Below are positions 8,000 to 40,601 of a DNA stretch of 64,000 bases, piece by piece (the stretch's first letter is position 1; every line of letters begins with the position of its first letter). The notes beneath the pieces were generated by a model. It was not told the origin of the DNA, searched no databases, and worked only from the letters and a program-made list of their open reading frames with translations. Source of the DNA: Dermabacteraceae bacterium TAE3-ERU27 (GTDB lineage Bacteria > Actinomycetota > Actinomycetes > Actinomycetales > Dermabacteraceae); the NCBI GenBank assembly GCA_019218415.1, contig JAHUUL010000002.1:372001-436000 (forward strand), in the 5' to 3' direction. The position numbers and the translations under genes were made by a program.

Positions 8000-8072
8000 T
8001 ACCCCGTACCGGATTTGAACCGGTGTTACCGCCGTGAGAGGGCGGCGTCCTAGGCCGCTAGACGAACGGGGC
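8000..8072 (-). tRNA. tRNA-Glu (CTC), copy 1
   Basis: 73-base cloverleaf on the minus strand. It has 5' GCCCCGT, D-arm, anticodon stem CCGCC/GGCGG enclosing loop CTCTCAC (anticodon CTC), and T-arm CCGGTTCAAATCCGG. The first acceptor pair is G1-U72 rather than Watson-Crick, unlike copy 2. CCA is not encoded. It is nearly identical to the neighbouring copy except for this end and a compensated pair in the anticodon stem. Confidence 0.95.
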
Positions 8073-8100
8073 CTAAACACTATCCGTAAATAATGTTTCG

Positions 8101-8173
8101 TGCCCCGTACCGGATTTGAACCGGTGTTACTGCCGTGAGAGGGCAGCGTCCTAGGCCGCTAGACGAACGGGGC
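8101..8173 (-). tRNA. tRNA-Glu (CTC), copy 2
   Basis: 73-base cloverleaf on the minus strand with a fully paired acceptor stem (GCCCCGT/ACGGGGC, discriminator A). The anticodon stem is CTGCC/GGCAG with loop CTCTCAC (anticodon CTC). It reads GAG. It lies 28 bases upstream of copy 1 and 31 bases downstream of tRNA-Gln, so the three form one transcription unit beside gltX, which encodes the synthetase that charges this tRNA. Confidence 0.97.
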
Positions 8174-8204
8174 GCGGACTTTAACAGGCGAACCTGTTTA
8201 AGCG

Positions 8205-8276
8205 CTGGGGTACCAGGACTCGAACCTAGAACAACTGAACCAGAATCAGCCGTGTTGCCAATTACACCATACCCCA
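8205..8276 (-). tRNA. tRNA-Gln (CTG)
   Basis: 72-base cloverleaf on the minus strand. It has acceptor TGGGGTA/TACCCCA, anticodon loop TTCTGGT (anticodon CTG), T-arm CTAGGTTCGAGTCCTGG and discriminator G. It is the first gene of the Gln-Glu-Glu tRNA cluster. In bacteria without GlnRS it is charged with Glu by GluRS (gltX next door) and amidated by GatCAB, also present in this window. Confidence 0.97.
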
Positions 8277-22053: not shown

Positions 22054-23142
22054 TCAGCTCACGAACTTGGTCATCCAGCCGTGTTCGTCGGCGCTACGGC
22101 CGTACTGGATGTTGAGCAGGCGCTCACGGATCGCGAAGGTCTTTTCGGTCTGGGCACCGTCACCGATCACGGTCTTTCCTTCGCTGGTCAGGAACGCGCC
22201 GATGGGGGTGACTACCGCTGCGGTCCCGCAGGCGAACATCTCCAGGATGTCCCCGGATTCGATGTCGGCAAGCACCTGCTTGAAGTTGAGGCGTTCCTCG
22301 CGCGGGGTGAGCCCCAGTTCTTCACCGATCTTGAGGATGGAAGCGCGGGTCACGCCCTCCAGGATCGAGCCGGTCAGTGCCGGGGTGCAGAGCGAGCCGT
22401 CGGCGCGCACCACGAACACGTTCATGCCGGAAAGCTCATCGATGAACGTGCGCGTTTCGGAATCGAGGAACATGACCTCATCGGCCCCGTTCTCCACGGC
22501 CTCCGCCTTCCCCAGCATGGAGGAGGCGTAGTTGCCGCCGCACTTGGCAGCGCCGGTGCCGCCCGCCCCCGCGCGGGAGAACTTCTCGCTCGCCCAGACG
22601 GTGAGAGGCTTGATGCCGCTCTTGAAGTAGGAATCGGCGGGAGAGGCGATGCAGTAGTACTCGACCTGCTTGGAGGGGCGCACTCCCAGGAACGCTTCGC
22701 TGCCGAACATGAACGGGCGCAGGTAAAGGGAGGATTCGCCACCGCTAGGCACCCAATCCTTATCGATCTCAAGCAGCTGGCGCACCGATTCCAGGTACAG
22801 CTCAACGGGCAGTTCCGGCAGCGCCAGGCGGCGCGCGGAAGCCTGCAGGCGCTGGGCGTTACGCTCCGGGCGGAAGGACCACACAGAACCGTCAGCGTGG
22901 CGGTACGCCTTCATGCCCTCGAAGATTTCCTGCGCGTAGTGGAGGACCCCCGCCGCGGGCGAAATGGTGATCGGGCCAAACGGCATAACCTGTGCGTCGT
23001 GCCACCCGTTCTCCGGGTTCCAAGAAATCCGCACCATGTGATCGGTGAAGTTGTCACCGAAGCCGGGGTTAGCGAGGATGTCCTCGCGTTCCTCCTGTGT
23101 GGCGGGGTTTTCGTTCCGGGTCACCTTGAAAGTCAGGGACAT
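22054..23142 (-). CDS. ilvE: Branched-chain amino acid aminotransferase
   Basis: PLP-dependent class IV aminotransferase of 362 residues, catalysing the last step of valine, leucine and isoleucine synthesis and the first of their breakdown. The catalytic Lys is in AAKCGGNYASS (about residue 198). FGPITISPAAGVLHYAQEIFEGMKAYR and LEGVTRASIL are typical of the BCAT-II group. ATG with GGAGGAAAA directly upstream. It lies 90 bases downstream of an IlvC-like gene on the same strand, so they are probably co-transcribed. No attenuator-like leader was found. Confidence 0.95.
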   Translation of the reverse strand: MSLTFKVTRNENPATQEEREDILANPGFGDNFTDHMVRISWNPENGWHDAQVMPFGPITISPAAGVLHYAQEIFEGMKAYRHADGSVWSFRPERNAQRLQASARRLALPELPVELYLESVRQLLEIDKDWVPSGGESSLYLRPFMFGSEAFLGVRPSKQVEYYCIASPADSYFKSGIKPLTVWASEKFSRAGAGGTGAAKCGGNYASSMLGKAEAVENGADEVMFLDSETRTFIDELSGMNVFVVRADGSLCTPALTGSILEGVTRASILKIGEELGLTPREERLNFKQVLADIESGDILEMFACGTAAVVTPIGAFLTSEGKTVIGDGAQTEKTFAIRERLLNIQYGRSADEHGWMTKFVS

Positions 23143-23232
23143 TTTTCCTCCATTAATTGCACGCGAGTATTGTTCCTCGCGATTCAGCTAGCGAATGCTC
23201 TAGGGCGGCGTATTTGCCGATAGAAGCGGTTT

Positions 23233-24117
23233 TTAGCGGCCGCCGCGCAGGGAAAACTTTTGCCGCAGCTCAGCCTGCTGCGCATCGTTTTCGCCGCCCG
23301 TTTCCGACTTTTCCAGCGGGGCAACCTTCCCCTCGCGGATCTCGGCCAGGATTCCGCTCAGCCTTTCCAGCGCGGCGTCATCCAGCACCTGCGCGCCGTA
23401 ACCGTGGGCCGGGGCAGAGCCTTCCGCGAGTTTCGCGGCGGCTGTCACGAGCTGGCGGTTAAGCAGCAGGTGCGCGGTTTCGGGAGAGTATCCCGCCGCG
23501 GTCAGGACCGTGAAACCTGCCTCTACGGTGCGCGCCATTACGCCCTGCAGCACGGCGCGCGCGCAGAAAACAGATGCGGCGGCGGTATCGCGTACGTCGC
23601 CGCGCACCGCTCCCGCGCGCAGCACGCCGAGCGCTTTCGCGTAGGAAAGCACAAGATCGAAGTCGTCGCCGGCAACCAGCGCGGGAACGCCCCTGCCCGC
23701 GGCGTACTCGCTACGCATGCCGGGCTCCGCGCAGATCAGTGCCGACCCTACGCCTTCGGGCAGCTGTAGCGTGCCCGTCAGCAGCGCCTCGGCGTCGGTG
23801 AGCAGCAGCGTCTTTCCGGGGCGCAGCGCCTCCCGCAGCGGCCCCTGACAGAGCGCCACCTGCTCCTGGCCCGGCACCAGCAGGGCGATCAGGTCGGCCC
23901 AGCCAGCGGCGTCGGCCGGATCGGTCACCTTAAAGCCTTCGTCTGCGGCATCTTCGCGGTGGGAAGAATCCTCCGGCAGGGCCACCTTCACCGCCACGCC
24001 GCTATCGCGCAGGTTCAGCGCGTGCTGGCGCGCAACTTTACCGAAGCCGATGATCGCTACCTTGGCGGCCTGTACCAGGCTCAGGTCAGCATCGTCGTCG
24101 TAAAACACTTCTGCCAC
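23233..24117 (-). CDS. Ketol-acid reductoisomerase-like protein lacking catalytic residues
   Basis: 294-residue protein aligning along its length with IlvC: MAEVFYDDDADLSLVQ..KVAIIGFG, QHALNLRDSG, GRGVPAL and AGY.PE are retained. Every functional site is changed. The Rossmann GxGxxG becomes GFGKVA (24-29). The HGFN loop with the catalytic His becomes TDAEALLTG (107-115). The metal-ligand block with D...E is replaced by DTAAASVFCARAV (177-189). The second acidic helix (FECLHEL in IlvC) becomes LLLNRQL (217-223). It should therefore not reduce or isomerise acetolactate. Start GTG with AAGGAG 5 bases upstream. It sits immediately upstream of ilvE. It might be a regulatory pseudoenzyme or have a new function. 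Confidence 0.85.
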   Translation of the reverse strand: MAEVFYDDDADLSLVQAAKVAIIGFGKVARQHALNLRDSGVAVKVALPEDSSHREDAADEGFKVTDPADAAGWADLIALLVPGQEQVALCQGPLREALRPGKTLLLTDAEALLTGTLQLPEGVGSALICAEPGMRSEYAAGRGVPALVAGDDFDLVLSYAKALGVLRAGAVRGDVRDTAAASVFCARAVLQGVMARTVEAGFTVLTAAGYSPETAHLLLNRQLVTAAAKLAEGSAPAHGYGAQVLDDAALERLSGILAEIREGKVAPLEKSETGGENDAQQAELRQKFSLRGGR

Positions 24118-24182
24118 GGGTGCTCCTTAAAAGATTGCCGACAAAATGCGCAGCTAGCACCATCTTAGAACCGCGGGCATAA

Positions 24183-24218
24183 AAAAGACCCGTCCGTGTG
24201 TTCACGGACGGGTCTTTT
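24183..24218 (-). terminator. Rho-independent terminator after the symporter gene
   Basis: A perfect 16-bp stem AAAAGACCCGTCCGTG (24183-24198) with CACGGACGGGTCTTTT (24203-24218) and a TGTT loop. A/T runs on both sides allow function in either direction. It isolates the symporter transcript from the downstream KARI-like/ilvE unit. Confidence 0.92.
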
Positions 24219-24230
24219 CACTAAAAGGCG

Positions 24231-25883
24231 TTACTTAACCTGCGGTATTTCGCCGGTTTCGGTGGATGCCTCCACGCCACTGCCCGGCTCTACCGGGTAG
24301 TCGGGGTCGGCTTCCAGCAGGGCACGCACCGATTCGATCTGCCCGGTGGCGGTGTCCTCTTCCGCCTGCGCCGCACGAATCTGTTCCTTGGTCGGCTCAT
24401 GATCCCCCATGCCCACGGCAAGCTCGGGATCAGCCACCGGCTCAAGCACGCCAACGTCGACGCGGGTCTTGTGGCGCAGGATCTCCATGCGCAGGATCTT
24501 GCTGAGCACGTACAGACCAACCAGGTTAGGAATGGTCATCAGGAAGAACGTGGAGTCGGAGAACGCGATCACGGAGTCCAGCGAAATAGCGGAGCCGACC
24601 ACTACCGCCAGGATCCAAACCACCTGGTAAACCTTGGTCACGACCGGGCTGCGGTCGAACAGGAACTCGGCGGCCAGCTGACCGTAGTAGGAGTAGGACA
24701 GCACGGTGGAGAACGCGAACAGGGCGACCGCGACCATCAGCACGTAGGGGAACCAGGCGGTGACGGTGGAGAACGCGGAGGCGGTCATCGTAATTCCGTC
24801 GATGTCCTCACCGTTCGTCTTGTAAACGCCGGTCACGGTAATCGCCAGCGCGGTCAGCGAGCAGATGATGACGGAGTCCACGAGGGGCTCCCACATCGCG
24901 GTGTAGCCCTCGGTAGCGGGTTCCTTGGTCTTCGCGGCGGAGTGCGCGATACCGGCGGTGCCGACGCCTGCCGCATTGGAGAACAGGGCACGCTGAATAC
25001 CGATGATGGCCACGCCAACCACGCCGCCCTGCACGCCCTCGGGGTTAATCGCGGACGAGAAGATGGTGCCGATTGCGGCGGGGATTTCGGCCGCGTGCAC
25101 AATCAGAATGGCGATAACGCACAGGAAGTAGATAATCGCCATGAGCGGGGTGATCTTCGCGGTCCAGCGGGCGATGGAGGAGATCCCGCCCAGGATCACG
25201 ATGGCGGCCAGAACCGCCATGATGACGCCGATAACCCACTTGTTATCTACCAGGAAATCGCTACCGAGCTGGGTCGAAAGGATCGAAGCCGCCTGGTTTG
25301 CCTGGAACAGGTTACCCGCACCGAACACGCCGATCAGGGTGAAGATCGAGTAAGCGATGGCCAGGCCCATACCGGTTTTCTTCCACCCGATCTCGGCAAA
25401 ACCGTTCTTCAGGTAGTACATGGGGCCACCGGCGGTGGTGCCGTCCTCGGAAATTTCGCGGTACTTAACGCCCATCGTCGCTTCGGCCATCTTCACGCTC
25501 ATCGCGAGGAAACCGAAGAGGATGATCCACAGCGCAGCGCCGGGGCCGCCCATCGAAATAGCGACGGCTACACCGGCGATGTTGCCGAGGCCGACGGTGC
25601 CCGACAGTTCGGTGGCGAGCGCCTGGAACGAGCTAACCTCGCCGGGGTCGGTCTTGCGGGTGAAGCGACCGCGGATCACATCTAGCGAATGCGCCATGCC
25701 GGTGATCGGCTGGAAACGCAGCCACACCGTCAAGAAGATAGCGCCCGCCATCAGCCAGAGCACGATGAGGGGAATCTGCACCCCACCGATCTGTGGCGAA
25801 TAGAAAACGATGCTAGATAGCTTGTCCGCAATCGGCGCGAACCACTCAGCCAAGAAAGCGTCGATACTGCCGTTGTCAGGCAA
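24231..25883 (-). CDS. Alanine/glycine:cation symporter (AGCS family)
   Basis: Sodium-coupled small amino acid importer of 550 residues, about ten or eleven membrane helices. Family motifs include TELSGTVGLGNIAGVAVAIS and GGPGAALWIILFGFLAMS in the first third and QRALFSNAAGVGTAGIAHSAAKTKEPATEG in the middle. After the last helix (about residue 455) there is an extra acidic cytoplasmic tail of about 90 residues ending ETGEIPQVK, not part of the transporter core. The start is TTG 25883 with GGAGAGGA 7-8 bases upstream. It lies between two terminators and is monocistronic. Confidence 0.93.
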   Translation of the reverse strand: MPDNGSIDAFLAEWFAPIADKLSSIVFYSPQIGGVQIPLIVLWLMAGAIFLTVWLRFQPITGMAHSLDVIRGRFTRKTDPGEVSSFQALATELSGTVGLGNIAGVAVAISMGGPGAALWIILFGFLAMSVKMAEATMGVKYREISEDGTTAGGPMYYLKNGFAEIGWKKTGMGLAIAYSIFTLIGVFGAGNLFQANQAASILSTQLGSDFLVDNKWVIGVIMAVLAAIVILGGISSIARWTAKITPLMAIIYFLCVIAILIVHAAEIPAAIGTIFSSAINPEGVQGGVVGVAIIGIQRALFSNAAGVGTAGIAHSAAKTKEPATEGYTAMWEPLVDSVIICSLTALAITVTGVYKTNGEDIDGITMTASAFSTVTAWFPYVLMVAVALFAFSTVLSYSYYGQLAAEFLFDRSPVVTKVYQVVWILAVVVGSAISLDSVIAFSDSTFFLMTIPNLVGLYVLSKILRMEILRHKTRVDVGVLEPVADPELAVGMGDHEPTKEQIRAAQAEEDTATGQIESVRALLEADPDYPVEPGSGVEASTETGEIPQVK

Positions 25884-35237: not shown

Positions 35238-36362
35238 CTAGAGCGATTCGATGCGCCTGGCCGCCCTTATCGCTTCTGGCAGACAGTTAGCGACCCGACT
35301 CACGTCCTCTTCGCCGCTGGTGTGGCCGAACGAGAAACGGATCGCGCCCCGCCGCACATTCACCGGATAGCCCATCGCGCGCAGCACGTGACTGTCCTCG
35401 GTGACGCCCGCCTGGCAGGCCGAACCGCCGGAGGCGTCTATGCCCTGGCTATCCAGGACGAACAGCAGCGCGTCCTGGTTACAGTCGGGAATGCAGGCGT
35501 GCACAATGTGCGGCGCGTGCGTGGCATCCGCGGCGGTCAGCACTGCCCTAGCATCGGATTCCTCGATCACCCGGCGCAGCTCCCGCGCTAACTTTTCGTA
35601 GCGGGCGGCGTTTTCTGCCAGGGAACCGATGGCCACGCGCAGCGCTGCGGCGAGCGCCACCGCGCCCGGCGCGTCCAGGGTGCCGGAACGCACCTGCCGT
35701 TGCTGTCCTCCCCCGGTCATGTGCGGGGTGAGGGGCAGGTCGGGGTCACACAGGAGAGCGCCGACGCCGACGGGGGCACCTATTTTGTGGCCGGAGAGGC
35801 TAACCAGGTCTAGCTGGCGCTGCGTACCGACGCCGATCTCCAGCGGGATGTGGCCGATGGCTTGCACCGCGTCGGTGTGAAAGCGGGCCCCGTAGCTGTG
35901 CGCTATTTCTGCGAGCGCGCGGACGTCCTGCACCACGCCGGTTTCGTTGTTCACCGCGTGCACGCTTACCAGGCTGGCGGGGCGCGCGGCCAGTTCCTCG
36001 GCGAGCGCGTCGGGGGTGAGGGTGCCGTCGGCGCGAACGGGGAGGATTCTGCCTCCTAGCGCCTGCACGGTTTCGAGCACCGCGGGGTGTTCCGTTGCGG
36101 TGGTGACTACCTCTCCGTCCACCCCGCGCAGCGCGAGGTTATCCGCCTCCGTGCCGGAACAGGTGAGGATCACCCAGGAGGAGGGAACCCCGAGCAGCTG
36201 CGCGATCTCGTCTATCGCGTCGGCAAACAGGGTGCGGGCGCGGCGCCCGGAAGAGTGCAGCGCCGACGGATTACCGACGCTTTCGAGCGCTCGCAGATAG
36301 GGTTCGCGCACCTGCGGGTGCAGGGGCGAGGTGGCGGCGTGGTCCAGGTAGTGCCTCACCAC
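35238..36362 (-). CDS. Cysteine desulfurase (NifS/IscS family)
   Basis: PLP enzyme of 374 residues that takes sulfur from cysteine onto an active-site Cys. Key sites are YLDHAATSP (start), ATEHPAVLE, HTDAVQAIG, the PLP Lys in SLSGHKIGAP (about 200) and the catalytic Cys in DASGGSACQAG (about 320). The linkage to mnmA is conserved in actinobacteria (Rv3025c-Rv3024c), so it is likely the sulfur donor for tRNA 2-thiolation. The start GTG 36362 overlaps the upstream TPR gene by 7 bases. An adjacent GTG at 36359 is equally possible. Confidence 0.93.
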   Translation of the reverse strand: MVRHYLDHAATSPLHPQVREPYLRALESVGNPSALHSSGRRARTLFADAIDEIAQLLGVPSSWVILTCSGTEADNLALRGVDGEVVTTATEHPAVLETVQALGGRILPVRADGTLTPDALAEELAARPASLVSVHAVNNETGVVQDVRALAEIAHSYGARFHTDAVQAIGHIPLEIGVGTQRQLDLVSLSGHKIGAPVGVGALLCDPDLPLTPHMTGGGQQRQVRSGTLDAPGAVALAAALRVAIGSLAENAARYEKLARELRRVIEESDARAVLTAADATHAPHIVHACIPDCNQDALLFVLDSQGIDASGGSACQAGVTEDSHVLRAMGYPVNVRRGAIRFSFGHTSGEEDVSRVANCLPEAIRAARRIESL

Positions 36363-37252
36363 GGCTTACTCCCGCCGTTGCCGTCTTCGCGTCCCTTTTG
36401 GCGTTCCTCTACGCGGTCTTCTTTGCGCTGATCCCCGCGCTGATCATCGGCGCTTTGTCTTTCATTGCCCTGGGCTCCGGGGTCGCGGCGGCGCTGATCT
36501 CCCGGTTCGAGCGGTCCACCCTGGCCGGGCTGCTCTCCCTTGCTGCCGTCCTGTCCCTCGTTTTCGTCTTTATTTTTGCTCTTGTCGCTGCCCGGTTTTT
36601 CTTCGGGATTGCCCGCTTCGCGGTCGGCCTGGCGTTTCTTCTCCTCGATGCGCTTCTTGGCCGATTCGCCCTCGCGCTGGTTTTCGTTGCCCTGGCCTTC
36701 GCCCTTTTGCTTGTTGCCCTGGCCGCCGCCCTTGCCTTTGCCGTTGCCCCGGCCCTTGCCGCCGTCACCGGAGTTGCCGCAGGGCTCGATCAGCTTCTTG
36801 GCCTCCTCCAGGACGCTTGCGCGCTGTTTCGCGTCGGCGATGTCGTCGCTTTTCTTTTCCAGGGTGAGCGCCAGGTTAATTTTGATCTTGCATTCCGCGT
36901 GCGGGGGCTGGTTCAGATCGTGGGAGGACTCCCAGTTTTGTAAAGCGGCGCGCAGGGAAGATTCGGCCTGTTCCAGCTTGCCTTCGCGAAGCAGGATGGT
37001 GCCCCGGTTGTAGTCAGCCAGGTAGGGCTCGAACCAGTTGGCGAAAAAGAGCGAATCGTTGCGTTCCTGCGCCGCCGGAAGCTCCTTTTGCGCGTAGTCG
37101 TCCACCACCAGGTGCGCGATCACGAACATGCTGAAGAACTTGAGCGCCAGTGCCGACAGCAGCAGTAGCGGTACGGCCAGGATCGCGGCCCAGATTAAGC
37201 GGACTTTGCGTAGCCATGCCCGGTCGAGTCCGTAGAGGGCGGGTCTGCTCAT
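36356..37252 (-). CDS. Membrane-anchored TPR protein with charged low-complexity tail (BatC-like)
   Basis: 298-residue protein beginning MSRPALYGLDRAW at ATG 37252, overlapping the VWA gene stop as ATGA. One membrane helix (about residues 18-42) is followed by a TPR-like helical region (YNRGTILLREGKLEQAESSLRAAL, about 80-103). The last ~130 residues are almost only Gly, Gln, Lys, Arg, Glu, Asp and Asn, so probably disordered. Order and composition match BatC-type genes of MoxR-VWA clusters. Role presumably scaffolding. A GTG or other start further upstream is unlikely. Confidence 0.8.
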   Translation of the reverse strand: MSRPALYGLDRAWLRKVRLIWAAILAVPLLLLSALALKFFSMFVIAHLVVDDYAQKELPAAQERNDSLFFANWFEPYLADYNRGTILLREGKLEQAESSLRAALQNWESSHDLNQPPHAECKIKINLALTLEKKSDDIADAKQRASVLEEAKKLIEPCGNSGDGGKGRGNGKGKGGGQGNKQKGEGQGNENQREGESAKKRIEEKKRQADREAGNPEEKPGSDKSKNKDENEGQDGSKGEQPGQGGPLEPGDQRRRDPGAQGNERQSADDQRGDQRKEDRVEERQKGREDGNGGSKPW

Positions 37253-38232
37253 TTCTTCCTCCCCACCGTTAGCGCAGGCATGGTGAGCGTCAAATACGCG
37301 CATTCCCACAGCAATAGCAGTGCGGCTCCCAGGGCGGGGATCCAGTAGTAGTCCTCGCGCGCGCTGATCTGCCCCTCTTGATCAGTTTTTATGCTGTGCA
37401 GATTCTTTATCGGAGCCAGTTTCCCGAGCACCGTGCTGTCTCTCTCCGTGTGCAGATAGGGAATGGCCATCTCTCTTGCGATCCGCTTTAGGTTCCTGAC
37501 GTCGGTACGCGAAATAGCGTCCGCCCCGGTGGCGGGGTCCTTAATGTACCCCTTGGGGGCATCCAGCCCGGAGGCGCGCATTTTGCCTCCCTGTTCGGTG
37601 CCGTAACCGATCACCGCGCCTCCGTTGAGCAGCCTGGCTATCGGCCTAAAATCGCGTGACTCACGATCGTCCGTGTTTTCCCCGTCGGAGAAGAAGTAGA
37701 GCAGTCGCAAGTCATCCGGGAACTGCGACTTTACGTCCGTTAGCTCCTCATAGATACGCTTCAGGGGACGATCCACATTGGAGCCGCGCGAGGTCGCAGT
37801 GGATTCCACCCGCATGGTGTCTACCCAGGCCAGCACCGCGCTCGTATCTGTCGTGTACGGCAGGCCGACGGTGGCCGACGAATCGAACGCGATGATGCCG
37901 AAACGCGCCCCCTGGTATTTCTCTACCAGTTCCCGAATATCCTTGCGCACCTGTTCCAGACGCGGTTTTCCGCCGGGGCCGTCCTCAGCCGCCATGGAAC
38001 CGGTCGTGTCCACCACGAAAAGCACATCGGCGTTTAGCCGCGAATCATTGCTGGTCTGCACGTAGGTGCCGGGGCGGGCCGCAACCAGGAGCAGCATGGT
38101 TACCAGCAGGAGCCGACGCACCCAGGCGAGCCTTTGTCCGGGCCGTTTCCAAACCAGCCACAGGCATAGCAGCGCGGCGGGCAGGAAGAGCGCGATAAGA
38201 GCGGGCCAGGAAAGTAAGGGTTGCCAGTTCAT
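37249..38232 (-). CDS. VWA-domain membrane protein (BatB-like)
   Basis: 327-residue protein with two N-terminal helices, a von Willebrand factor A domain (from about residue 75) and a C-terminal helix. The MIDAS motif is present as VVDTTGSMA (DxTxS variant), with later metal-site elements in FDSSATVGLPYTTD and YFFSDGEN. Predicted to display a metal-dependent adhesion domain on the outer face of the membrane. ATG 38232 overlaps the previous VWA stop as ATGA. Part of the moxR-DUF58-VWA cluster, where VWA proteins are thought to be clients or adaptors of the MoxR ATPase. Confidence 0.88.
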   Translation of the reverse strand: MNWQPLLSWPALIALFLPAALLCLWLVWKRPGQRLAWVRRLLLVTMLLLVAARPGTYVQTSNDSRLNADVLFVVDTTGSMAAEDGPGGKPRLEQVRKDIRELVEKYQGARFGIIAFDSSATVGLPYTTDTSAVLAWVDTMRVESTATSRGSNVDRPLKRIYEELTDVKSQFPDDLRLLYFFSDGENTDDRESRDFRPIARLLNGGAVIGYGTEQGGKMRASGLDAPKGYIKDPATGADAISRTDVRNLKRIAREMAIPYLHTERDSTVLGKLAPIKNLHSIKTDQEGQISAREDYYWIPALGAALLLLWECAYLTLTMPALTVGRKK

Positions 38233-39257
38233 CGCCTGCTCCTCCATCCCGCAAGCAGCATCAGGAATACGCTAATCGCGCTCAGCGCCCACAGCGGATA
38301 CGGGTAATCCGTGTATTGGCTCCGGGTTACTCCCCCGCTTTCCTGCGCAGTCGTGCGCTGAATGTCGTTCACGATGGCGGCCGCGGATTCCGGGCCGCGC
38401 AGCGAATAGAAAGTACCGTTCGCGCTTTCGGTGGCCTGCTGCAACTGCCGGGCACAGATCCCATCGGGGCAAATAAACGCGCCGGGGTAGAGCGTGTAGA
38501 GGTGAATCTTGCGTGCGGTCACGCTCTTCATCGCCTCGGGTAGCGAGAACACGGTCTTTCCGCCCACCTCGTTATCGGTAACGAAAATGATGGAACGGTT
38601 GCGTTCCTGATCGGCCCTATCGAACTGCCGGGAACAGGAAACCAGGCCGTCGGGGATCAGCGAAGCGCCCTCCTCACGGACGCGGGTGCCGCGCATGAAA
38701 CGCAGGAACTCTTCCTTCTGCTCCCTGGTGTAGGCGGACGGATTTTCCCGCGCCTTCAGCTCGTCTAGCTCTAACACCTTCGCGCCTAGTTCCAGCTGAC
38801 GCCGCGCCATCGCATAATCCGTGGTCAAGGGGAATACGGTGCGGGCACCGGAATTGAAGATCGTAAGACCGATGCGTTCCCCGTGAAAGCTTTTCAGCGC
38901 CTCAGCGAACTGCAGCAGTATGGCGCGGTCGCTCTTAGCCATGGAGCTGGAAACGTCCAGGCAAAGCACGATGTCTCGCTGCTGTCCTCCCGTGACTGCG
39001 CTGTGCTGAGTAACCGGCCTGCCCGCCAGCAGCGCCACGCTAAGCAGGGAAAAGGCACAGGATATGACCAGCAGCCACCGCCAGATGCGGGCGCGGCGCT
39101 GGGCGCGCACGAATTTGGGTAGTTGCCACAGGTAATCGGAGCCGGAAACCGGGATGGCGTCGCTGCCACGGTCGCGTCGGCGGCGCACCATGGCCGCCAC
39201 CAGGCCCACCGCAAGCAGCAGCAGGACCAGGGGAAGCCACCAGAAAGCTAACGCCAT
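38229..39257 (-). CDS. VWA-domain membrane protein (BatA-like)
   Basis: 342-residue protein. It has an N-terminal helix (3-23), a basic segment, a second helix (about 60-80), then a VWA domain with a perfect MIDAS DVSSSMA (about 100-106), IFNSGARTVFPLTTD and FVTDNEVGG, and a C-terminal helix before the stop. A 40-residue charged insert (KARENPSAYTREQKEE) sits in the VWA domain. ATG 39257 overlaps the upstream gene by 10 bases. Pairs with the following BatB-like gene. Confidence 0.88.
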   Translation of the reverse strand: MALAFWWLPLVLLLLAVGLVAAMVRRRRDRGSDAIPVSGSDYLWQLPKFVRAQRRARIWRWLLVISCAFSLLSVALLAGRPVTQHSAVTGGQQRDIVLCLDVSSSMAKSDRAILLQFAEALKSFHGERIGLTIFNSGARTVFPLTTDYAMARRQLELGAKVLELDELKARENPSAYTREQKEEFLRFMRGTRVREEGASLIPDGLVSCSRQFDRADQERNRSIIFVTDNEVGGKTVFSLPEAMKSVTARKIHLYTLYPGAFICPDGICARQLQQATESANGTFYSLRGPESAAAIVNDIQRTTAQESGGVTRSQYTDYPYPLWALSAISVFLMLLAGWRSRR

Positions 39258-39721
39258 TGCCTGATCACCTCCCGCACCCGCCGCAGCGAATCCTCTATCT
39301 GCCTATCGGAATCGGCCGCGAAGTCCGGTTCGTAAAGCCAGGCGATCGCCTCCCCGACCGGGCGGTTTCGCGGATCGGCCAGAACCTCGGTCAGCGAACC
39401 GCTAGATACGTCCACTCCGGTGGAGCGCAGCAGGAACATCCGCAATATCCCCGTGAGCTCCTGATGCGCGCGGCGGGCGGTGTATTCCCCGCTGGCAACG
39501 CGCGCGGAAACGTCCGCGGTAGCGCGCAGGAACTCCGCCTTGAGCGCCTCCAGGTCGCTCACCGTTGTGGTGAGCGCTCGCCGCAGGGCGTAGCGGTAGG
39601 TGAGGCTTTTTACCAGCAGAATGCTGGCGATCACCAGTGCCAGCAGCAGGAAGGAAAGAATCAACCAGGCCGGCGAGTAAGCCACGGGGGCGACTATCTC
39701 GTCGCCTTCGCTATATAGCAC
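39248..39721 (-). CDS. Membrane protein of the MoxR-VWA cluster (DUF4381-like position)
   Basis: 157-residue protein with one N-terminal membrane helix (about residues 17-37) and a helical cytoplasmic part containing GEYTARRAHQELTGILRMFLLRSTGVDVSSGSLTEVLADP, similar in arrangement to the DUF4381 proteins found between DUF58 and VWA genes. The family assignment rests on order and architecture rather than a clear motif. The GTG start overlaps the DUF58 stop by 11 bases. Confidence 0.7.
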   Translation of the reverse strand: MLYSEGDEIVAPVAYSPAWLILSFLLLALVIASILLVKSLTYRYALRRALTTTVSDLEALKAEFLRATADVSARVASGEYTARRAHQELTGILRMFLLRSTGVDVSSGSLTEVLADPRNRPVGEAIAWLYEPDFAADSDRQIEDSLRRVREVIRQWR

Positions 39722-40601
39722 TGCCCTGCCTCCTTCTTAGCGCCGCCACCATGTCGTTTACTACCGTGCTATCGCCGTCCGTGACGATCTGCGGGATGCG
39801 TAGCGCCGTCAGCATTTCCTTGACCTGCCGTTCCCGTGCGTCACGCACCTGCGCGGCCTGCGCCGCGATGTCGCGGCGGGAGCGCACGGCAGTTTCGATT
39901 ACGCGCGGATGTTCCACATCCCGCACGTCGCGATTCGGCTTATCGGGCTGCAGCGGGTCCGCGTCGCGCACTCTGACGATGAGCATGTCGTGGCGGACGG
40001 TCAGTTTGCGTAGCAACTGGTAGTCGGCGGTGCTCGGGTGGGCTTCGTCTGTCAGATAGACGATGAGCGATGGGCGCGCGATGACCTTGCTGGCTCGTTC
40101 CAGCAGCCAGGCGGAGTCGCTCGCGTGCGCCTGCAGGGTAGTGCTGCGTTGGATGGTGCGCAGCAGCAGTTCCAGGTGCCCGTCCGAGGCGCGGGCGGGG
40201 AGCTGAATGTGGTTGTGCGCGCTGCCCGCCACCAGGCTCACCAGGTCGCCGTTTTGCTGGGCGAGGTAGCAGATCAGCCCCGCCGCGGTGAGCATCGCGG
40301 CGCTCTTGCTGCTGCCGTCGCGGGCGGTGGCCGCCATGGCTCGCGAGGTATCTGCCACGATGGCGATGTGGCGTACGCGTTCCTCGTTGAAGCGCCTCAC
40401 CAGGGGTTCGTTGGTGCGAGCGCTCGCTTTCCAGTCGATATCGCTAATGCGGTCGCCCGACTGGTAGGTGCGCAGATCGTCAAAGTCTTCCCCGCTGCCC
40501 TTGAACTGTGACCGGCCGCGCCCCTGAATCAGCCCGCTGGTTTTCTTCAGCGTGCGTAGCTCTAGCCGCGCTTTTACGCGGGTGAGGAGGGAGGTCGCCA
40601 T
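39711..40601 (-). CDS. DUF58 domain protein
   Basis: 296-residue soluble protein with the DUF58 signature GSGEDFDDLRTYQSGDRISDIDWKASART (about 35-63), then a degenerate VWA-like fold (IAIVADTSRAMAA). DUF58 proteins accompany MoxR ATPases and VWA proteins and are thought to form part of a chaperone-like complex. The start is 3 bases after the moxR stop. The C-terminus (REVKEMLTALRIPQIVTDGDSTV) is typical of the family. Confidence 0.9.
   Translation of the reverse strand: MATSLLTRVKARLELRTLKKTSGLIQGRGRSQFKGSGEDFDDLRTYQSGDRISDIDWKASARTNEPLVRRFNEERVRHIAIVADTSRAMAATARDGSSKSAAMLTAAGLICYLAQQNGDLVSLVAGSAHNHIQLPARASDGHLELLLRTIQRSTTLQAHASDSAWLLERASKVIARPSLIVYLTDEAHPSTADYQLLRKLTVRHDMLIVRVRDADPLQPDKPNRDVRDVEHPRVIETAVRSRRDIAAQAAQVRDARERQVKEMLTALRIPQIVTDGDSTVVNDMVAALRRRQGSAI

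Follow-up and report, generated by a model that had tools for sequence, protein, structure and literature searches.

In the window analysed here (64,000 nucleotides from Dermabacteraceae bacterium TAE3-ERU27), a shortened ketol-acid reductoisomerase (KARI) homolog, hereafter pseudo-KARI, is the orthologous ilvC left over after pathway loss. The explanation that we favour as probable is that this leftover ilvC orthologue is now a selected KARI-fold pseudoenzyme with a non-catalytic role. With slightly less assurance, although still on balance, we propose that it represents a new KARI-derived pseudoenzyme family of one lineage of Dermabacteraceae, in which ilvC was taken over for a non-enzymatic function after pathway loss and came under strong purifying selection. 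It would be a clear-cut natural example of how an enzyme turns into a non-enzyme, as the orthologue itself would have been taken over without gene duplication. A literature search found no paper joining ketol-acid reductoisomerase and pseudoenzyme, and novelty is claimed within the literature and genome collections searched.

Pseudo-KARI occupies the position of ilvC

Table 1. Features of the pseudo-KARI locus (window positions)
Feature	Position	Strand	Description
Pseudo-KARI gene (degenerate ilvC orthologue)	23233..24117	-	294 aa, GTG start
Pseudo-KARI residues 1-266, selected core	23320..24117	-	Defined by substitution pattern versus sister species
Pseudo-KARI residues 267-294, C-terminal tail replacing canonical C-terminus	23236..23319	-	Fast-evolving, low-confidence
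Ribosome-binding site AAGGAG of pseudo-KARI gene	24123..24128	-	Read from sequence; also in sister species
Terminator-like hairpin, alsT/pseudo-KARI gap	24183..24218	-	16-bp arms and T run; read from sequence
ilvE, branched-chain aminotransferase type II	22054..23142	-	NF009897 470 bits, TIGR01123 380 bits, both above cut-off
alsT/agcS sodium:amino acid symporter, upstream neighbour	24231..25883	-	TIGR00835 354 bits; synteny

In Dermabacteraceae relatives the gene order is gatA-gatB-alsT-ilvD-ilvB-ilvN-ilvC-serA-leuB-ilvE, after which comes a convergent helicase gene; alsT/agcS adjoins the ilv cluster there too. In the window and in the genome of a sister species (G001, whose contig matches Dermabacteraceae bacterium TAE3-ERU5) the order is gatA-gatB-alsT-pseudo-KARI-ilvE-helicase, and ilvD, ilvB, ilvN, serA and leuB are absent from the window interval. 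Because this is the order of the relatives minus the pathway genes, pseudo-KARI occupies the place of ilvC. One annotated relative (G002) has cimA before the helicase gene and carries an IS110 insertion in its ilv cluster, with the IS110-family transposase between ilvD and ilvB (L044:5690-6967).

The preliminary description had regarded the protein as a paralogue. A search of the window genome (2.0 Mb, 98% complete) found no second KARI, canonical or otherwise, and pseudo-KARI is also the sole KARI in the sister genome; a paralogue beside a true ilvC was therefore rejected in favour of a single positional orthologue. Many Actinomycetaceae-like genomes (g25, g34; L064:6701-10057) were seen to have a pair of KARI genes separated by a few kb. 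A maximum-likelihood tree placed both pseudo-KARIs among the KARIs of the family and order, at a position that the tree does not resolve, and joined them by a stem roughly 6 changes per column long; since this stem is very long, it is gene order rather than the tree that carries orthology.

The remainder of the pathway was also missing. Neither genome of the genus yielded an ilvD, for which a match exists in 55 of the 58 genomes searched, and no biosynthetic acetolactate synthase was found in either, the sole strong match to the latter being a PoxB-type pyruvate dehydrogenase. In another genome (G005) ilvD is split over two frames, by either a frameshift or an assembly error (L063:6034-7937, G005:C1). 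The genus has thus lost the common valine/isoleucine pathway while its ilvC orthologue stayed behind, and automatic annotation of the latter as 'ketol-acid reductoisomerase' would wrongly give the genus part of a missing pathway.

The hairpin between alsT and the pseudo-KARI gene, which was not among the elements listed by a simple pattern scan, is kept in the sister species, and its terminator-like form after alsT suggests that the pseudo-KARI gene has its own promoter. Downstream, a standard IlvE-II gene starts after 90 nt on the same strand. An Rfam search of the window returned three tRNAs only (three consecutive genes at 8000-8276, minus strand) and no RNA leader or T-box, so control of the pseudo-KARI gene by such an element was rejected.

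The KARI fold is predicted to be retained

Pseudo-KARI gave a complete match to the Pfam KARI_N domain (2.4e-29, 102.5 bits; cut-off 20.6). KARI_C matched at 28 bits, below the cut-off of 29.1 and across model positions 10-43 of 144 only, or at a borderline 30.4 bits with the summing of another program. The NCBIfam class I ilvC models gave 110-163 bits against cut-offs of 226-406. Pseudo-KARI therefore lacks the pairing of KARI_N and KARI_C above cut-off by which a KARI enzyme was recognised, while homology, fold and orthologous position place it in the KARI superfamily by descent. The domain search found no DNA-binding or known regulatory domain.

An AlphaFold2 model, calculated from an alignment of seven rows, had a mean pLDDT of 76.9, with 83-95 over the first 130 residues, 51-86 in the C-terminal domain (where the model is only moderately confident) and below 50 in the tail. 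The preliminary description had called for a comparison with KARI structures, and KARIs were indeed the best matches (Z up to 27.4), indicating that the predicted fold is still that of a KARI. The rmsd was 5.1 over 241 residues against 4ypo (Z 27.4) and 2.8 over 233 residues against 4kqx; the high rmsd in some matches fits either a different domain opening or an imperfectly modelled C-terminal domain. Class I KARIs (C. glutamicum 6jx2 and M. tuberculosis 4ypo; Z 27.2-27.4) share the fold over most of its length, with 34-35% identity over 237-241 residues, together with the gene position and the start motif FYDDDADLSL. In contrast to these proteins of about 340 aa, pseudo-KARI has a shortened C-terminal domain with a 13-residue deletion, and it has lost H108, K131, D83, S252 and metal ligands.

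Catalytic and cofactor residues are lost

Active-site residues were identified by aligning pseudo-KARI to 21 other KARIs and are numbered here as in the Methanothermococcus enzyme (MtKARI; PMC8615647). The metal ligands D191, E195, E227 and E231, which together form the two-Mg2+ site, are replaced by S, A, L and Q in the window protein and read S, E, L and Q in the sister species; D191, E227 and E231 are thus lost in both species and E195 in the window species only. KARI catalysis needs the metals (PMC8615647). The catalytic His of HGFN is replaced (H108D), as is the Lys of APKGPGH (K131E), where three residues of the loop are deleted. Further changes include D83G and E189A, and the 13-residue deletion takes out S252 with the SDTAE segment. 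The preliminary description had stated that all catalytic and metal sites were erased, which is borne out for the window protein, whereas E195 persists in the sister species. Histidine or acidic residues that are shifted but present were ruled out as far as this alignment shows.

The cofactor site has changed likewise. Substitutions S27K, Q28V and G29A turn the glycine loop from GSQG into GKVA and the GxGxxG motif into GxGxxA, confirming that the third glycine is gone. D83, R/K48 and S53 contact NADP in MtKARI (PMC8615647), and in pseudo-KARI the positions of the 2'-phosphate contacts R/K48 and S53 hold P and H. G24, G26, S51 and G134 are retained; of the NADPH contacts considered (GxGxxG, R/K48, S53, D83 and G134), G134 alone is intact.

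Structural motifs were retained in the alignment while catalytic motifs were lost. Pseudo-KARI keeps 43 of the 85 columns that are invariant in KARIs, mostly Gly, Ala, Pro and hydrophobic residues, and none of seven catalytic columns picked by us from the known mechanism (hypergeometric P about 0.005), a distribution indicating that the loss of catalytic columns is not random drift. Stripped of the Mg sites, of both catalytic residues (His and Lys) and of several contacts to NADPH, pseudo-KARI would be unable to carry out ketol-acid isomerisation and reduction. A Nocardioidaceae MAG (L033:2252-3268) also encodes a KARI that carries D191A and lacks four residues at S252; its gene adjoins serA and ilvE, and ilvB/ilvN are not directly upstream. 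This KARI may represent an earlier step in the same process or else an artefact of the MAG.

The protein core is under purifying selection

The window and sister sequences differ by 58 substitutions in the pseudo-KARI gene, 37 of them at third positions, with no gap and no stop over 294 codons, and the ribosome site and upstream region are kept; the open reading frame of the preliminary description is real. For the whole protein dN/dS was 0.19, from the single pairwise estimate that two species allow, and 15 amino-acid changes were observed. Placing the same changes at random predicted 39.2 +/- 3.2 under neutrality, and 0 of 20,000 trials were as low. Residues 1-266 gave a dN/dS of 0.068, with 42 substitutions distributed 4/3/35 over codon positions 1/2/3 and 6 amino-acid differences against a neutral expectation of 28.4 +/- 2.8 (a value this low came up in 0 of 20,000 simulations). 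We set the boundary at residue 266 after the differences had been seen, and the whole-protein simulation is free of that choice. Over residues 267-294, where 16 substitutions fell, dN/dS was about 2.4, no different from the neutral simulation.

Neighbouring genes have dN/dS values of 0.02-0.06 (ilvE, 0.043). The pseudo-KARI core is thus held by purifying selection about like a working gene, in agreement with the earlier proposal that the gene is maintained rather than decaying. Since the frame, the ribosome site and the core are all preserved, pseudo-KARI does something, and probably it has a new job. Catalytic residues lost from a protein that selection maintains are the marks of a pseudoenzyme, and both are present.

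Conservation extends beyond the strain, as the second species has the homolog, the ilvE linkage and, E195 excepted, the residue losses. One scan of genome contigs with pseudo-KARI recovered the sister genome and three other MAG KARIs only. Selection on an antisense ORF (23260-23769) was rejected, because its dN/dS was 1.8 and third positions of the KARI frame dominate the changes. Elsewhere in the window, the stretch 36356-40601 has mostly dS values of about 0.3-0.65 against the sister species, compared with 0.06-0.18 for the genes around ilvE, a pattern as from recombination.

Candidate roles for pseudo-KARI

Since the metals, the His, the Lys and the NADP contacts are all lost together, a non-catalytic role is the likelier one, and it is the most likely reading overall, with a metal-free oxidoreductase as its main rival. 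The leftover ilvC would have become a pseudoenzyme that keeps the KARI fold but lacks the Mg sites, the catalytic His/Lys pair and several of the contacts to NADPH; it could then act by holding a ligand in the altered Rossmann cleft or through contact with another protein, for which IlvE would be the first candidate partner. The expression of pseudo-KARI, its partner and role, and its lack of all catalysis are what we infer from these patterns.

The main rival, which we consider unlikely though worth weighing, is a new metal-independent oxidoreductase, in which the GxGxxA Rossmann domain would bind NAD(P)(H) and a remodelled pocket (D108, E131, K27) would turn over another substrate. The sequence GFGKVA, which we take to be a usable dinucleotide-binding motif, would serve such an enzyme, as would the retained G24, G26, S51 and G134 in a confidently modelled Rossmann core; the lost NADP contacts D83, R/K48 and S53 argue against it. 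Moreover, the family has neofunctionalised before. BurG, a cyclopropanol synthase (PMC9359912; 7pcc), is like pseudo-KARI a KARI descendant with a new role and matches its modelled fold with a Z of 24.6; however, BurG exists as a paralogue alongside an ordinary ilvC, retains both Mg2+ and uses NAD+, whereas pseudo-KARI is the sole copy and has lost its metal sites. Promiscuous IlvCs of Streptomyces reduce pyrroline-5-carboxylate (PMC4353338), and IlvC of Buchnera serves as ketopantoate reductase, the PanE step (PMC4306246), showing that a reduced genome can keep IlvC for a purpose beyond its own pathway. The Buchnera protein is, in contrast to pseudo-KARI, a working enzyme. The window genome encodes PanB, PanC and a PanE-family protein (the last above the TIGR00745 cut-off), unlike a genome that had kept PanB and PanC without PanE, and also a ProC-family, P5CR-type protein with a P5CR dimerisation domain. 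Replacement of ketopantoate reductase or of pyrroline-5-carboxylate reductase was therefore rejected, and neither reduction is needed to explain pseudo-KARI.

A non-catalytic role remains our preferred reading. A related case is PriA of Actinomycetaceae with gene loss (PMC5404923), a retained enzyme that likewise evolves after its pathway partners have been lost. PriA keeps catalysis under relaxed selection, whereas pseudo-KARI has apparently lost catalysis and has a core under strong selection.

A further rival, in line with the regulatory or ligand-sensing role put forward in the preliminary description, is a regulator that senses branched-chain oxo acids or amino acids and acts on IlvE or transport; we regard it as improbable. 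In its favour, both species have the gene next to ilvE and to an amino acid symporter, branched-chain amino acids must be taken up from outside, and the 2-oxoisovalerate used by the retained PanB and LeuA would have to come from IlvE. LeuA is intact (TIGR00970, 769 bits; dN/dS 0.053; between era and recO, L089:8266-9987, G000:C12), and because it is under selection it is plausible that IlvE produces 2-oxoisovalerate for both leucine and pantothenate, with imported valine as the source; leucine may thus derive, by way of IlvE, from valine taken up by the cell. However, the linkage to ilvE goes back to the ancestral cluster, and the adjacency, although real, is therefore a lead only and offers little evidence that the two proteins work together. 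The charge reversals H108D and K131E and the metal loss further argue against the natural ligands, anionic oxo or hydroxy acids, still being bound as they are in KARI, and a regulatory domain of a known kind is missing, as described above.

Finally, a pseudogene on its way out with a frame open by chance is very improbable and strongly disfavoured: the pathway is gone and the C-terminal tail drifts freely, but the core dN/dS lies near that of functional neighbours, 35 of the 42 core changes are at third positions, the neutral simulations never matched the observed conservation, and the ribosome site and upstream region are conserved. Genes of a lost pathway normally vanish. In a related family, for which 121 genomes were examined, KARI is essentially full length or undetected, with one clearly decayed remnant. 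This ilvC pseudogene (G038; L060:9866-10448, G038:C1), from a genome in which no ilvD was found, shows what such decay looks like, as its 5' part is missing and it is frameshifted; unlike pseudo-KARI, it still has the C-terminal catalytic acidic residues.
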